Under the pieces are notes generated by a model. It saw nothing but the letters and a program-made list of their open reading frames with translations. It did not search any database and had not been told where the DNA came from. Below, one piece after another: positions 34,565-40,644 of a stretch of DNA of 64,000 bases; positions within the stretch are counted from its first letter, which is position 1, and each line of letters opens with the position of its first letter. The DNA is from Algisphaera agarilytica. GTDB taxonomy: Bacteria > Planctomycetota > Phycisphaerae > Phycisphaerales > Phycisphaeraceae. The stretch covers positions 434,001-498,000 of the forward strand of contig NZ_JACHGY010000001.1 of the NCBI RefSeq assembly GCF_014207595.1. The letters run 5' to 3'. The position numbers were made by a program, and so were the translations under genes.

Positions 34565-34593
34565 AAGCGCCGCGACTTGTCGCGGCGCTTTTT
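34565..34593 (+). terminator. Terminator after ndk
   Basis: GCGCCGCGAC and GTCGCGGCGC form a 10-bp stem with a 2-nt loop (TT; inner pairs probably open), followed by TTTTT. Confidence 0.88.
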
Positions 34594-34648: not shown

Positions 34649-37600
34649 TTACGGCGACTCGATCCACTCGGCCAGATACGACAAGCCTTCCTCGCCGCCG
34701 TCGGGCGGGCCGGGCTCGTCGCCGTTGAACAGGTTGTCGGCCTGGATGCTGTTGACCGGGCCGTCCCAGATGGCCACGCGGTGCAGCGTGCCGAGCCACG
34801 GCCGACTGCCGCCGTTCTCGTTGCCCAGCAGCAGCTGGAATCCGCTATCCCAGTTGTCCAGGTCGCCGGTCCACTCCTCGGCGACCTCGAGGGTGCCGTT
34901 GCGGTATAGCCGGAGCTGCTCGCCGTCGTAGCTGAGCACCACGTGCTGCTTCACGCCTGCTTCGAGGACATCGCCCGAAGCCGCGGTGGGCGTGCCCGTG
35001 CTGTTGAACTCGGTGCGGACGCTCGCCTCGTAGGCCTGCTCCGATTGGCCGAGGTAAAAGTTGCGGCTCGAGGTGCTGCTGGCGTAGCTGACGATCCGCG
35101 CGGGGCCGTTCTGGGTGATGTTCGCGGGGGTGAACTCGGCTTCGAGGGTGAACGCGTCGCTCTCGGTCAGCGTTCCGTGCAACGGCTCAGCGCCGCTTGG
35201 GGTCACGATGGTGGTCGCTCGATCGATCTGCAGCCCGCCGCCATCGATCCAGGTGATGTCGTTGAGGTCGGAGATCATGAGGTCCAGCGGGATGGCGTTG
35301 CCCGAGGTGTCCTGCACCGTGGCGCTCTGCGCATCACCGGGCGAGTTGCCCACCAACAGGTCGGCGACCTGCTCGGTTTCCAGGTTCATGTCGTAGATGC
35401 GGATGTCGTCGAGCCGGCCCTCGAAGGGGTTGTCCCAGCCGTCGGTGGTGAGTGTGGTGCTGCGCCACTGGTCGACGCCGAACGCCCAGGGCTCGGCGTT
35501 GCCGCTACCACCCGAAGACGTGCCCAACCCGCCGTAGTAGTGGTGGGTGTCCGCGAGGACGCCGTCGATGTAGAGACGAAGCCCCTGGCCGCCGAAACCG
35601 ACCGCGACGTGGTGCCAATTGTTTTGGCTGATCGCCCCGCCGGACGACTGAACGTAGTAGCTGCTGCGGTCGCTTTGGAGCCGGACCTGAACGGTCGAGC
35701 CGTTGAGCACCACGCGGAAGTGTCCGCCGTCTTCGTAGTTGTACGCGTCCTTGCCGACCAGCCCCTGCGTGCCGCCAATACTCGTGGGGTAAACCCAGAA
35801 GGACACGGTGCCCTCGTCGAGCAGGTAGGCCGAGTTGTGGGGCACCGCGACGAAGCTGTCGGAGCCGTCGAAGTCCACGGAAGTGCCCGCGTCGGCACCG
35901 TAGCCGGACTGCCCGCCGCTGACCGAGCCGTGGTAGACGCCGTCGCTGAGGCCGGTCTCGTCCCGGGCCACAAGCCCCGAGCCGCCCGCCCCGGCGTTGA
36001 GGTGCAGCGTGGACTGGCTGTACATCTGGAATGAGTCCCCCACGGTCGCCGAGCCATACAACGCCGCCGAGTTGTTGAGCCGCAGGTCGTCTTTGGCGTA
36101 GACGTTGGCGCTGACGACCGAGGTGCTGTTGAGGGTGATGTCGCCCTTGGTGTTGTGGTAGCTGCTGAGCGTGACGCGGTCCGGGCCGGACGTGTCGGGG
36201 TTGATCGAAGAGCTGTTGTTGAGGCGAACCCCTTCTTTGACGTAAAGCGTCAGCGACGAGCCGGACGGCACGATGATGCTGCCCTCGTTCATCGTCAGCG
36301 CCTTGCTGACGGTGATCGTGACGTGGCCGCTGATCGTGATCTGGGCGTTGTTGTTGACCGTCCAGTCCTTGTATTCGCGGTTGGACGAGATCGTGTGGGT
36401 CCCGCCGTCGTGGGTCATGTTCGAGCCCGAACCGATCCCGCCCGAGGGCTCGGGGATCGAGACGTCCATGGACGACGGCAGGGTGGTCACGCTGCCGGTC
36501 ACCAACGCGCCGTTGGAGGTCTGAATGTCGACATCACTGGCGGTGTTGCCGCCGACGCCGATGAACAGGCTGCCGCCGATCCGCGATTGGCCGTGGACGC
36601 GTGCGGTGTCGCTTCCGGTGCGGTTGGTCGAAACGACCGCGGCGTCTTCGGGGGTTTGCGAGTCGTAGGTGCCCAGCTCGGCGTCGTAGCTGTCGATCTT
36701 GGCGTCGTTGCTCAGACGGATCATGCCGCCGACGGTGAGCCCGGACGACGCCGAGCCCGATTCGTCCAGCTTCCAGTGGCCGACCAGCTGCGGGGTCACG
36801 GGCTGGGGCTCGACAAACTCGTACAACGCCGCGAGCGAGGGCGCGTCGCCCCCCCCCCCGCCGCCGGAGACCGCGACGACCGCGACCTGCTCGGTGGTGT
36901 GGCTGCGGTCGCTGTCGCGGATCTGGTCTTCATCCATCGCCAGGTTGACTTGAGTCGTGCTGAGCGGGTCTGCGCCGTAGAGATACGCCCAGCCTCCGTC
37001 CGATCCGTCGAGGCCCGCGGTGGTCACAACCGCAATGGTCGGCGCCTCGTCGAACGTTTCTTCAAAGTCGCCGGTAAACGGCGGGCTGTTCTGCACGCCC
37101 CGCACCCGGTCGGCCGACACCGACGCATCGATCGTCGCGCCGCTGTATTCCCAGTGGCCCTCTTCAAAAACGATGAAGCCCACGGTCTCGTCGGCCCGGG
37201 TTTTGTCCGAGTCTTCGCAGACCGTCTTGCCGGTCTTAAGCGCGCTGCCGCTGGGCGGGTTGGTCCGCGAGTTGCCGTAGCTCCAGAACACCGACCAGTC
37301 GTCGTCGTTGGCGCTCATCACCTGGCCGATCACCACCGGCTTGGTGTACGTTTGCAAGTACGACTGCGCTTCGCCGACCCAGGACTTGTTGTTGTCGGTG
37401 CGGGTCGAGGTGTATTTCTGCGCCTCGTACTTCATGCCGTTGACCACGTGGGCCCCGGACTCGACCGCGATGAAGTACACGTCCTCGTTAGTCACCGCGG
37501 CGCCCGAGGGGTTCTCCAGCCAGACGGTGAAACCGCTGGACGAGGCTTCGTCCATCCGCACAACCACGGGCTGGGTGTTGTTGGCGTAGTTGATGGTGCA

Positions 37601-38764
37601 GACGACCACGGGGTCGGAAAAGCCGCGGAGCGAAACGGTCTGGGGCACCGCACCGACGTTGACCACCCCGGTCTGGATCTTGCCCTTGCCCGAGCCCGAT
37701 AAGCCCGCGGCCCAGGCGATGGCCTGGCGCATGATCTTCTTGCCGTCGCCGCTAACCTTGCTGAAATCAAAGCTGCTGCCGCCCCAGGGCATCGCCACCC
37801 GGCGGCCGGTGGCGACCCCGCCGCCCAGCAAGGCCTCGCCACGTTCGATGACGCCGAGCTTGGTGTAGTAGCTGCCGTAGTCCGACTGGGCCAGCGCGTT
37901 CAGCCCCGAGGCCTTGCTCCCGACAATGGCCAGCAGGTGCGAGCTCGATTCGGTCACGAAGACGTGCCCCAGGGGCAGGCCCTCGGTGACCGGGTGCGAG
38001 TTGTCGACCACCGTGATGTACGAGGCCGAGTAGTGGTAGTAGCTGCTGGACAGGCCCAGGTCATCCGAGAGCGTGCCCGCTTCGAACACCACACCCTTGG
38101 TGGCGCCCGTCAGGTCGTCCGCGACGCTGCCCGCCGAGGTGCGGTTGCTCACGTAGATCACGTCGGCGTCGCCGATCGCCGCCGAGAAGGTCGAGGCATT
38201 GGCGTTCTGTGAGATCAGCGTCACCGTGTGCCCCCACGACTCGATCAACGCCTGCCGGGCCTGGTCGTCGCTGCTGAGCGAGGTGGCATTGGGCACGACC
38301 ATGAGCACGCCCAGGCTCACCGCCGCGGCGCTGCCCTGAGGCGTGACCCGGGTAGACACGCGGTGCGTGACGCCGTCCACCCGGCCCTCGACCGTGACGG
38401 TAAAACCTTCGGACACGTCGTTGCCCAGGTCGGCGTCGTCTTCGTCTTCGAGCACCACGCGGAACGTCCCGCCGTTGAGCGGGTATTCCGCGCTCCACAC
38501 GCCGTGCGTAAAGTTGTCGCGCCACTCGGGGTCGGCGTTGGACCGGATGTGTTCCAACGCCATCTCCAAGCCGTCTTCCGCCACCGCACGGGCCTGGACC
38601 TGGCGGTTGGCGTTGTGGGCGATGGCGGTCGAGGTGGTCTGCCCCGAGAGGAATGTCAGCGCGATGACCGTGCCCACCGTCAGCGCGATCATCACCAACA
38701 CCATCGCCAAGCCGTGGCGGCGGGGTTGGGGCGTGCGATCAATCGGGCGGGGCGTTGAGGTCAT
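34649..38764 (-). CDS. Giant modular minor pilin (PilX/GspK-like N-terminus, two LamG-like domains)
   Basis: The 1371-aa product starts with a class III leader ending RRHG, followed by LAMVLVMIALTVGTVIALTFLSG. That fits PilX/GspK-type minor pilins, which lack Glu5. A domain at about 145-355 resembles the GATase-like fold seen in planctomycete surface proteins (VLMVVPN, HPVTEGLPLG). Residues 365-630 are beta-rich and unassigned. A Gly6 run at about 634-639 is encoded by an 11-G tract. A DUF7305-like repeat-rich region (about 790-930) and two LamG-like domains (about 960-1140 and 1170-1350) follow. It is the last gene of a pilV-pilW-pilX-like set. The likely role is a pilus or pseudopilus tip adhesin. 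Confidence 0.8.
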   Translation of the reverse strand: MTSTPRPIDRTPQPRRHGLAMVLVMIALTVGTVIALTFLSGQTTSTAIAHNANRQVQARAVAEDGLEMALEHIRSNADPEWRDNFTHGVWSAEYPLNGGTFRVVLEDEDDADLGNDVSEGFTVTVEGRVDGVTHRVSTRVTPQGSAAAVSLGVLMVVPNATSLSSDDQARQALIESWGHTVTLISQNANASTFSAAIGDADVIYVSNRTSAGSVADDLTGATKGVVFEAGTLSDDLGLSSSYYHYSASYITVVDNSHPVTEGLPLGHVFVTESSSHLLAIVGSKASGLNALAQSDYGSYYTKLGVIERGEALLGGGVATGRRVAMPWGGSSFDFSKVSGDGKKIMRQAIAWAAGLSGSGKGKIQTGVVNVGAVPQTVSLRGFSDPVVVCTINYANNTQPVVVRMDEASSSGFTVWLENPSGAAVTNEDVYFIAVESGAHVVNGMKYEAQKYTSTRTDNNKSWVGEAQSYLQTYTKPVVIGQVMSANDDDWSVFWSYGNSRTNPPSGSALKTGKTVCEDSDKTRADETVGFIVFEEGHWEYSGATIDASVSADRVRGVQNSPPFTGDFEETFDEAPTIAVVTTAGLDGSDGGWAYLYGADPLSTTQVNLAMDEDQIRDSDRSHTTEQVAVVAVSGGGGGGDAPSLAALYEFVEPQPVTPQLVGHWKLDESGSASSGLTVGGMIRLSNDAKIDSYDAELGTYDSQTPEDAAVVSTNRTGSDTARVHGQSRIGGSLFIGVGGNTASDVDIQTSNGALVTGSVTTLPSSMDVSIPEPSGGIGSGSNMTHDGGTHTISSNREYKDWTVNNNAQITISGHVTITVSKALTMNEGSIIVPSGSSLTLYVKEGVRLNNSSSINPDTSGPDRVTLSSYHNTKGDITLNSTSVVSANVYAKDDLRLNNSAALYGSATVGDSFQMYSQSTLHLNAGAGGSGLVARDETGLSDGVYHGSVSGGQSGYGADAGTSVDFDGSDSFVAVPHNSAYLLDEGTVSFWVYPTSIGGTQGLVGKDAYNYEDGGHFRVVLNGSTVQVRLQSDRSSYYVQSSGGAISQNNWHHVAVGFGGQGLRLYIDGVLADTHHYYGGLGTSSGGSGNAEPWAFGVDQWRSTTLTTDGWDNPFEGRLDDIRIYDMNLETEQVADLLVGNSPGDAQSATVQDTSGNAIPLDLMISDLNDITWIDGGGLQIDRATTIVTPSGAEPLHGTLTESDAFTLEAEFTPANITQNGPARIVSYASSTSSRNFYLGQSEQAYEASVRTEFNSTGTPTAASGDVLEAGVKQHVVLSYDGEQLRLYRNGTLEVAEEWTGDLDNWDSGFQLLLGNENGGSRPWLGTLHRVAIWDGPVNSIQADNLFNGDEPGPPDGGEEGLSYLAEWIESP
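36849..36859. repeat. 11-base C homopolymer inside the giant pilin gene
   Basis: A run of 11 C on the plus strand is 11 G in the coding direction and lies in the codons of a Gly6 run. A gain or loss of one base would shift the frame near residue 636 and remove the C-terminal half, including both LamG-like domains. Confidence 0.85.
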
Positions 38765-38795: not shown

Positions 38796-39398
38796 TTACG
38801 GGTTGGTGCGCAGCAGAGTGGTGCCGATCACCACCTCGGTGAGGTTGCCGGCGTTCAACGACAAGCGGTAACTCGCCAGGCGAGCAGCCTGCGGGTCGGT
38901 CTGGTCGAGGGTGAATTCGAAGGCGGTCGCGTCGTTGCCCCAGCGGGTTTCGGGGAAGTCGGCCGTGCCGCGCAGCGTGTGGGTGATCGCGTCGAAATCG
39001 CTGGACGTGGAGTACAACACATCCGTCGTGCCGTCCGGCGCGGTGTACGACGACAGCGATTCTGTAGCCGCGTCGAATTCGATCAGGCGGACCTCCAGCA
39101 GGCTGGGCTCGCCGTTCTCATCGAGGTCGCGTTCCCAGAGCGCCACCCAATCGCTTCCCGCGTCGAGCACCATCCGGCTGCCACGCAGCGCAGCATCCAG
39201 ACGCATCGACACCATCTTGCCGCGTGCGACGAGCTTGCGGACGTCGCTGTCGGCACTGGTGCCGTACGCCACCGCCGAGAGCATGCCCGCGATCGCGGCG
39301 CTGATCAGCCCCATGACGCCCAGCGCCATCATCAGCTCGACCAGCGTCAGGCCGCGGCAGCCGCGGTGTCGGGTTGTCTTCACCGTGCGCGGGTTCAT
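38796..39398 (-). CDS. Minor pilin, PilW/GspJ-like
   Basis: The 200-aa product has a class III prepilin leader with the cleavage point in RGCRG/LTLVELMMALGVMGLISAAI, where Glu5 is present. The rest is a soluble domain rich in Asp and Thr. The ATG at 39398 overlaps the upstream gene stop by 4 bp, which decides the start against an ATG at 39434. Size and order after a PilV-like gene fit PilW/GspJ. It is 31 bp upstream of the giant pilin gene. Confidence 0.82.
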   Translation of the reverse strand: MNPRTVKTTRHRGCRGLTLVELMMALGVMGLISAAIAGMLSAVAYGTSADSDVRKLVARGKMVSMRLDAALRGSRMVLDAGSDWVALWERDLDENGEPSLLEVRLIEFDAATESLSSYTAPDGTTDVLYSTSSDFDAITHTLRGTADFPETRWGNDATAFEFTLDQTDPQAARLASYRLSLNAGNLTEVVIGTTLLRTNP

Positions 39399-39922
39399 TC
39401 GGCGGGCTCCGGGACAAAACGCGTAATGGTCCATTCACGCCCGCCGGCCTCCGCGACCGTCACGGTCAGCGTCATGCCGTCGATCGTTCCGCCCAGGCCC
39501 GCGATCGTGGCGGTATCCGTTGCCACCGTGACCGCTCGGCTGAAGACCTGATACGTCTCGGGGTAGAGCACGCCCGCCGGGTCGGCGAGGGTGCCTGCGT
39601 CTTCGGTGTAGCCGTGCATGTCGTCCAGGCCGTCGTAGACGGCGCGGGTGTTTTCGTCGGTATCGGGGCCGAAGGTGGTGTCGCCGCCCTGGTCGGCGTA
39701 GGACAACGCCAACGCCTCTTCCATTAAAGCCTCGGCCAACGCCAACGCCCGCTCCTCGTGCAGCGCGTTGTACGTGTGGGCCTGGCCCGACACCACGGTC
39801 TGACTCAGCCCGGCCACCACCACCGCCAACAGCGCAGACGCCAGCAACACCTCAACAAGGTTGAAGCCGCGGGCTCGCCGATGGGCACGATGGATGAATT
39901 TGGGCCTTCTCCTGGCCTGCAT
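39395..39922 (-). CDS. Minor pilin, PilV/GspI-like
   Basis: The 175-aa product has a basic leader ending in RARG followed by FNLVEVLLASALLAVVVAGLS, a typical type IV prepilin N-terminus with Glu5. Position first in a pilV-pilW-pilX-like order supports the PilV/GspI assignment. The soluble part contains many Thr, Asp and Gly. It is divergent from the GspH-like gene at 40108, and the 185-bp gap between them may hold both promoters. Confidence 0.82.
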   Translation of the reverse strand: MQARRRPKFIHRAHRRARGFNLVEVLLASALLAVVVAGLSQTVVSGQAHTYNALHEERALALAEALMEEALALSYADQGGDTTFGPDTDENTRAVYDGLDDMHGYTEDAGTLADPAGVLYPETYQVFSRAVTVATDTATIAGLGGTIDGMTLTVTVAEAGGREWTITRFVPEPAE

Positions 39923-40021
39923 GCGCAGGATCTCCTGGGTCTAAATCTCTCCCCTCCCATCGGCAGGATCCACGTGGTTTTTCAGCACAAACCCCTGCCC
40001 GCCCCGCGGATTGACGCCTCA

Positions 40022-40043
40022 AAACCCCGATCTGAGGGGGTTA
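40022..40043 (+). promoter_or_regulatory. TGAGGGGGTWA motif upstream of the GspH-like gene
   Basis: This copy, including CCGATCTGAGGGGGTTA (40027-40043), matches the one before tatA with 3 differences in 22. It is about 65 bp upstream of the GspH-like start and in the divergent gap of the pilin locus. The function is unknown. Confidence 0.35.
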
Positions 40044-40107
40044 TCGGCCCGTTTCGCCCGATTTCCCGCGCGTTCCGGCCGCTCCACGCCAAACCCCCTG
40101 CGGGCAT

Positions 40108-40644
40108 GTGTCGATGATTCAGTTGATGCATTGCGCTCGTCCAACCCGCCGATACGCCGGCTACACCATCGCGGAGATGCTCGTGATGGTGGCGGTGCTG
40201 TCGATCATCTCCGCCCTCGCGGTGCCGATGTTCCGCGGCCAGGACACCACGCAACTCCGCGAAGCCGCCAAGCTGCTCGCCGCCGACCTCGACGCGGCCA
40301 AGTTCGAGTCGATGACCCACGCCGACGACCTGCGCCTGGTTGTCTTCGACACGACCAACCACACCTACCACATCGCCGCGGCGTCCGACCCCACCACGCC
40401 GATCACCAACCCGGTGGACGGCCAGCCGTACCTCGTCGACTTCGGCGAAGGCCGAGCCTCGGCCCTGGGCATCGTCCAGATCCAGAGCGTCGACCTCGAC
40501 GGCGACGACGAACTCGGCTTCGGGCTCTACGGCCAACTCGATCAGGCCACCACCGCCACCATCACCCTCGCCGCCAACGACGCCGAGCTCACCCTCACCC
40601 TCGACCCCGCCACGGGCGAGTCCGTCATCGGGCAAATTCAGTAG
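40108..40644 (+). CDS. Minor pilin, GspH/FimT-like
   Basis: The 178-aa product has a leader ending YAG before YTIAEMLVMVAVLSIISALAVPMF, a prepilin N-terminus with a Glu at position 5 (YTIAE), followed by AKLLAADLDAAKFESM, the helix typical of GspH/FimT. GTG at 40108 and ATG at 40114 are both possible starts. It is divergent from the pilV-pilW-pilX-like genes, completing a minor-pilin set (H, I, J, K roles). The main pilin, ATPase and prepilin peptidase are not in the window. Confidence 0.82.
   Translation: MSMIQLMHCARPTRRYAGYTIAEMLVMVAVLSIISALAVPMFRGQDTTQLREAAKLLAADLDAAKFESMTHADDLRLVVFDTTNHTYHIAAASDPTTPITNPVDGQPYLVDFGEGRASALGIVQIQSVDLDGDDELGFGLYGQLDQATTATITLAANDAELTLTLDPATGESVIGQIQ

Follow-up and report, generated by a model that had tools for sequence, protein, structure and literature searches.

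Known systems

In work on the Neisseria phasome, G/C tracts of at least nine bases are the cut-off for candidate phase-variable loci; the pilC genes carry in-frame tracts of 9–20, and the genomes of most commensal species have only 1–7 poly-G tracts (PMC5953494). In a meningococcal reporter system the median switching frequency was 1.2e-7 at G10 and 1.2e-9 at G11, and mismatch repair was without effect at G10–G13 (PMC4085013).

The G11 tract described here, in a pilin gene of the planctomycete Algisphaera agarilytica, is like those of pilC1 and pilC2 in the pathogenic Neisseria in that a poly-G run lies in frame within a pilus-associated protein of adhesin type, and slips truncate the product. 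PilC is, however, a PilY1-type protein and not a prepilin with LamG domains, and whereas the pilC tract occurs in many strains at lengths of 9–20 (PMC5953494), here there is one genome, one length and a set of homologues that are free of the tract. A second comparison is with the FimU-PilV-PilW-PilX (GspH-I-J-K) sets, with which the locus shares a divergent H-like gene followed by I-like, J-like and large PilX/K-like genes, but with the K/X position occupied by a 1371-aa protein that combines a GATase-like domain, a mobile module, DUF7305 and two LamG domains. A literature search found no paper joining LamG with minor pilins and, going by titles and the openings of abstracts, none on phase variation of planctomycete pili. 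The third comparison is with glycine-rich inter-domain linkers: six glycines stand between two domains, and their counterparts are rich in Ser, Gly and Asp, but three consecutive GGG codons here create the G11 run, whereas none of the others contains a long homopolymer. We consider that G11 is probably a homopolymer that is incidental and mutable, lying in the Gly6 linker between two domains of a giant minor (pseudo)pilin of the PilX type, and give this reading, which draws on sequence comparison, a probability of roughly three in four.

A giant prepilin-like protein

The window is the whole stretch of 64,000 nucleotides that was analysed (positions 434,001 to 498,000 of contig NZ_JACHGY010000001.1), and the features of the pilin locus within it, in window coordinates, are as follows.

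34565–34590, no strand assigned: perfect 11-bp hairpin, then a T-rich tail, between the pilin gene and ndk
34649–38764, minus strand: PilX-like prepilin or minor pilin with DUF7305 and two LamG domains, 1371 aa from ATG
34736–35170, minus strand: LamG domain 2, residues about 1199–1343; second Laminin_G_3 stretch, extent from homologue matches
35363–35869, minus strand: LamG domain 1 (PF13385, Laminin_G_3), residues 966–1134; better of the two stretches
36002–36541, minus strand: DUF7305 (PF23981), residues 742–921; E 5.3e-8, 33.4 bits against a cut-off of 27
36848–36865, minus strand: Gly6 linker, residues 634–639; codons GGC GGC GGG GGG GGG GGC
36849–36859, minus strand: G11 homopolymer (C11 on the plus strand); codons 636–638 and two bases of codon 639
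36869–37705, minus strand: mobile module of about 280 aa, residues about 354–632; without Pfam match
37703–38320, minus strand: GATase-like alpha/beta domain, residues about 149–354; AlphaFold pLDDT mostly 80–93
38330–38764, minus strand: prepilin-like N-terminal segment (RRHGLAMVLVMIAL..., residues 1–145); conserved in all full-length homologues
38796–39434, minus strand: prepilin-like gene in the GspJ/PilW position; N-methylation motif, 0.5 bit under the Pfam cut-off
39395–39922, minus strand: prepilin-like gene in the GspI/PilV position; N-methylation motif, 0.6 bit under the Pfam cut-off
40108–40644, plus strand: divergent prepilin-like gene in the GspH/FimT position; weak Pfam score

The pilin gene is the last of three minus-strand genes, following the I-like (39395–39922) and J-like (38796–39434) genes, and the hairpin at 34565–34590 is likely a terminator, with the pilin gene last in its operon. 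The three ORFs with N-methylation motifs at 38796–40644 form a layout that is repeated at many of the related loci examined, and the partner prepilin motifs RGLTLVELMM and RGFNLVEVLL are plain despite Pfam N_methyl scores just below the cut-off. The N-terminus of the 1371-aa protein has no match among the Pfam prepilin models, and PilX_N and GspK likewise do not match; it has a hydrophobic prepilin-like segment, RRHGLAMVLVMIALTVGTVIALTFL (residues 15–39), after a short basic leader, and this segment is conserved in the homologues. Gene position and N-terminus suggest that the protein is a minor pilin or pseudopilin of the PilX/GspK type, and its probable role, together with the neighbouring H-I-J partners, is to cap a type IV pilus or a type II secretion pseudopilus. 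The genome has 16 T2SSE-family matches, and pilus or pseudopilus machinery is thus available.

Foldseek gave useful matches only for the GATase-like part, the best for residues about 149–354 being glutamine amidotransferase domains (E 1.4e-4). Such a fold in a prepilin-type surface protein is odd for a pilus tip; it is conserved across the Phycisphaeraceae homologues. We also note tandem duplication of the giant pilin gene in several relatives (in G025, in G032 at L045 and L047, and at L144 and L147), with copies that differ in their middle modules.

The G11 tract and its slip products

C11 on the plus strand, G11 in the coding strand, occupies exactly 36849–36859 and starts at base 1906 of the coding sequence, in codon 636 of the minus-strand ORF at 34649–38764, 46% of the way into it. 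The original prediction had placed this run in frame within Gly6 at about residue 636 of 1371, with a DUF7305-like part and two LamG domains beyond it, and codon reading and the Pfam matches downstream of the tract agree with it on both counts. It had also claimed that a one-base slip would remove DUF7305 and both LamG domains, and this holds in silico: G10 is predicted to reach a stop at 655 aa, roughly 16 out-of-frame residues past the tract, and G12 at 743 aa, roughly 104 past it. In either product DUF7305 (742–921) and both Laminin_G_3 stretches would be gone, and the out-of-frame tails are low-complexity, Arg-rich read-through. The gene thus has a G/C tract of at least nine bases inside its ORF and a predicted frameshift with any one-base change, and the allele in the assembly is the in-frame (ON) form.

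These properties raise the possibility of a contingency locus, in which G11 would be a selected slipped-strand switch of the LamG adhesive half, as in Neisseria pilC with its in-frame G tracts. In its favor are that slips truncate the protein exactly before the conserved adhesive half, and that the gene is of surface type and the last of its cluster, so that no polar effect is expected; the run is also above the Neisseria cut-off (PMC5953494). We nevertheless find a contingency locus unlikely. A tract only 46% into the ORF leaves the prepilin part in the OFF product, which might thus still be built into a pilus, the assembled allele is ON, and the low frequency at G11 in the meningococcus means that length alone is no guarantee of a high switching rate (PMC4085013). 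The distribution of such tracts within the genome and among the homologues also bears on this.

Long G/C runs in the genome

G11 is the longest G/C run of the 4.17-Mb genome, which counts for a contingency locus and against an incidental origin; the next longest in the window are four runs of length 7. Exact counts for both strands of the genome, obtained by pattern searches, are 276 runs of length 7, 24 of 8, four of 9, two of 10 and one of 11. The drop from runs of 7 to those of at least 8 is about ten-fold (31/307), and the tail is flatter beyond, such that runs of 9–11 are somewhat commoner than a steep geometric tail predicts, a further point against the incidental reading. Using extension chances of 0.10 (the measured 31/307, from 7 to at least 8) to 0.19 (the probability of a G after G6 in a 400-kb sample of 20 evenly spaced 20-kb stretches), the 31 runs of at least 8 lead to an expectation of about 0.03–0.2 runs of at least 11. 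Synonymous recoding of the whole protein with the codon use of the genome produced a run of at least 11 in 74 of 3000 trials (2.5%), and within the linker the probability of at least 11 G, given SGGGGGGD and the same codon use, is 0.023; at 2–3%, the codon spelling is uncommon by chance, which also weighs against an incidental origin. Slippage itself tends to lengthen runs such as G11. One G11 in a whole genome is uncommon but not extraordinary, and does not demand selection.

The genome contains seven G/C runs of at least nine bases in all, four of which, on our reading of the sequences, appear to be non-coding. On the same reading the two other coding runs belong to the genes of a hybrid histidine kinase (in frame, as GGG GGG GGG) and a GH2-type enzyme (in frame), and among the six other runs there is no bias to surface genes, G11 being the only one in a gene of that type. 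There is therefore no cohort of contingency loci, no phasome-type set, which speaks against a selected switch. Loss of mismatch repair was rejected as a cause of instability, because MutS is encoded in the genome and mismatch repair has little effect at G10–G13 in the meningococcus (PMC4085013).

Compared with the seven runs of at least nine in A. agarilytica, two other genomes of similar size have 3–8, and two relatives in the same family, G007 and G005 (one and two contigs), have about 70 and 37; many of those in G007 appear intergenic. In the family MAGs G001 and G002 there are runs of G50–G60 at contig ends that look like artefacts of two-colour sequencing. We rejected family-wide counts of long G runs as evidence, because overlapping matches were counted and several MAGs have such contig ends.

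The linker and its homologues

We compared 31 distinct homologous genes from the Phycisphaeraceae and near relatives, 19 of them long ORFs of the family and order, taken from 60 relatives, and 12 from GTDB contigs. A single-protein search of genome contigs found nothing; for the GTDB contigs an alignment of five members worked, and one of 14 members was too diverse. None of the 31 genes has a G/C run of at least nine (the longest is of eight, away from the linker), and in all 31 both halves lie in one open frame, so that neither a retained tract nor an out-of-frame allele is found in any of them. At the equivalent point the homologues have linkers such as STSSGSG, SQSTGSG, GEGSSSGEG or acidic stretches, which are short, variable and without a long homopolymer.

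The segment before the linker has neither a Pfam match nor a PDB sequence match. Copies of this module are found in unrelated large ORFs from other families of the class (42–53% identity), with up to ten in one class member genome (G081), and twice in tandem in a contig of a Patescibacteria-labelled MAG (L191; 31–35% identity). The copies end in EQVAYIVFE or similar, and the module has the appearance of a mobile surface domain that has yet to be named. Module matches stop at residues about 628–633, directly before Gly634, and immediately after Gly6 (634–639) comes the conserved APSLAALYEF...LVGHWKLDE, with which the C-terminal half starts in the homologues. Where the module occurs in other proteins, linkers of Ser, Gly and Asp come after it, for example DSSSGGD and DGSGGGD, with surrounding G/C runs of at most six. 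The closest whole-pilin homologues (35–40% identity) lack the module and have instead LamG, DUF7305, other segments or nothing, which makes the middle module, as judged from these alignments, interchangeable within a modular giant pilin.

By the same alignments, Gly6 is placed as a flexible linker between domains would be, at a point where glycines would be cheap and their spelling free. In an AlphaFold model of residues 140–930 the pLDDT is about 25–40 over 355–673, the linker stretch included, and the structure model thus neither supports nor contradicts this assignment. The on/off switch of the original prediction is left unsupported, as the tract and a broken frame are absent at the linker in the 31 homologous genes, such tracts do not form a set in the surface genes of the genome, and Gly6 can be accounted for as a linker that follows a mobile module.

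Elsewhere in the order, in another family (L124, G057:C1:754700-754709), a prepilin-like ORF (MRTPPRAFTLIELLVVVAIIALL...) has a C9 run at its start, within the leader peptide and immediately ahead of the N-methylation motif; as a candidate for slipped-strand variation it is better placed than G11.

Origin and behavior of the tract

The comparison has a limited reach in time: the nearest homologues are only about 35–40% identical and the pilin gene is absent from both same-genus genomes (78% and 91% complete), which tempers the incidental reading, since a recent, species-specific switch would leave no comparative trace. We regard it as unlikely that G11 is such a switch, recently arisen and acting by strand slippage on a LamG adhesin at the pilus tip.

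It is also quite improbable that the assembled length of 11 is a sequencing or polishing error and the true length different. Homopolymers of such length are error-prone on most platforms; the assembled 11, however, keeps one frame in which each half matches homologues, and 10 or 12 would break the gene. The weakest alternative, to which we give hardly any weight, is slippage of RNA polymerase or the ribosome on G11, by which one DNA sequence would yield full-length and truncated protein in constant proportion, given that, although long homonucleotide runs are prone to slippage in general and both shifted frames stop soon after the tract (655 and 743 aa), the run is not conserved in homologues and the Arg-rich, low-complexity shifted tails are without evident function.

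We therefore return to G11 as an incidental homopolymer in a linker, Gly6 joining the mobile module of about 280 aa to the conserved DUF7305-LamG-LamG half. The run may have arisen as synonymous codons drifted to GGG, as slippage added whole glycine codons, or in both ways, and its in-frame length would be maintained by selection on the full-length protein. It could slip at a low rate, whether selected for or not, and occasional slips of one base in either direction, which are to be expected on physical grounds, would give rare products of 655 or 743 aa without the LamG half.

Implications

If the switch were real, it would be the first phase-variable pilin described for the Planctomycetota, as far as the literature search shows, and its OFF form would be a shorter pilin that keeps the GATase-like domain and the mobile module and loses LamG. 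It would extend phase variation of the kind seen in pathogens to a presumably environmental planctomycete, and switching would open the workings of a huge LamG minor pilin to study. The value of the locus is more likely to be methodological, in that the position of a linker and the choice of codons account for a homopolymer above the usual cut-off in an attractive surface gene, once its homologues are read. In the gene itself we see a giant minor pilin, conserved in the Phycisphaeraceae and modular, with interchangeable middle modules.
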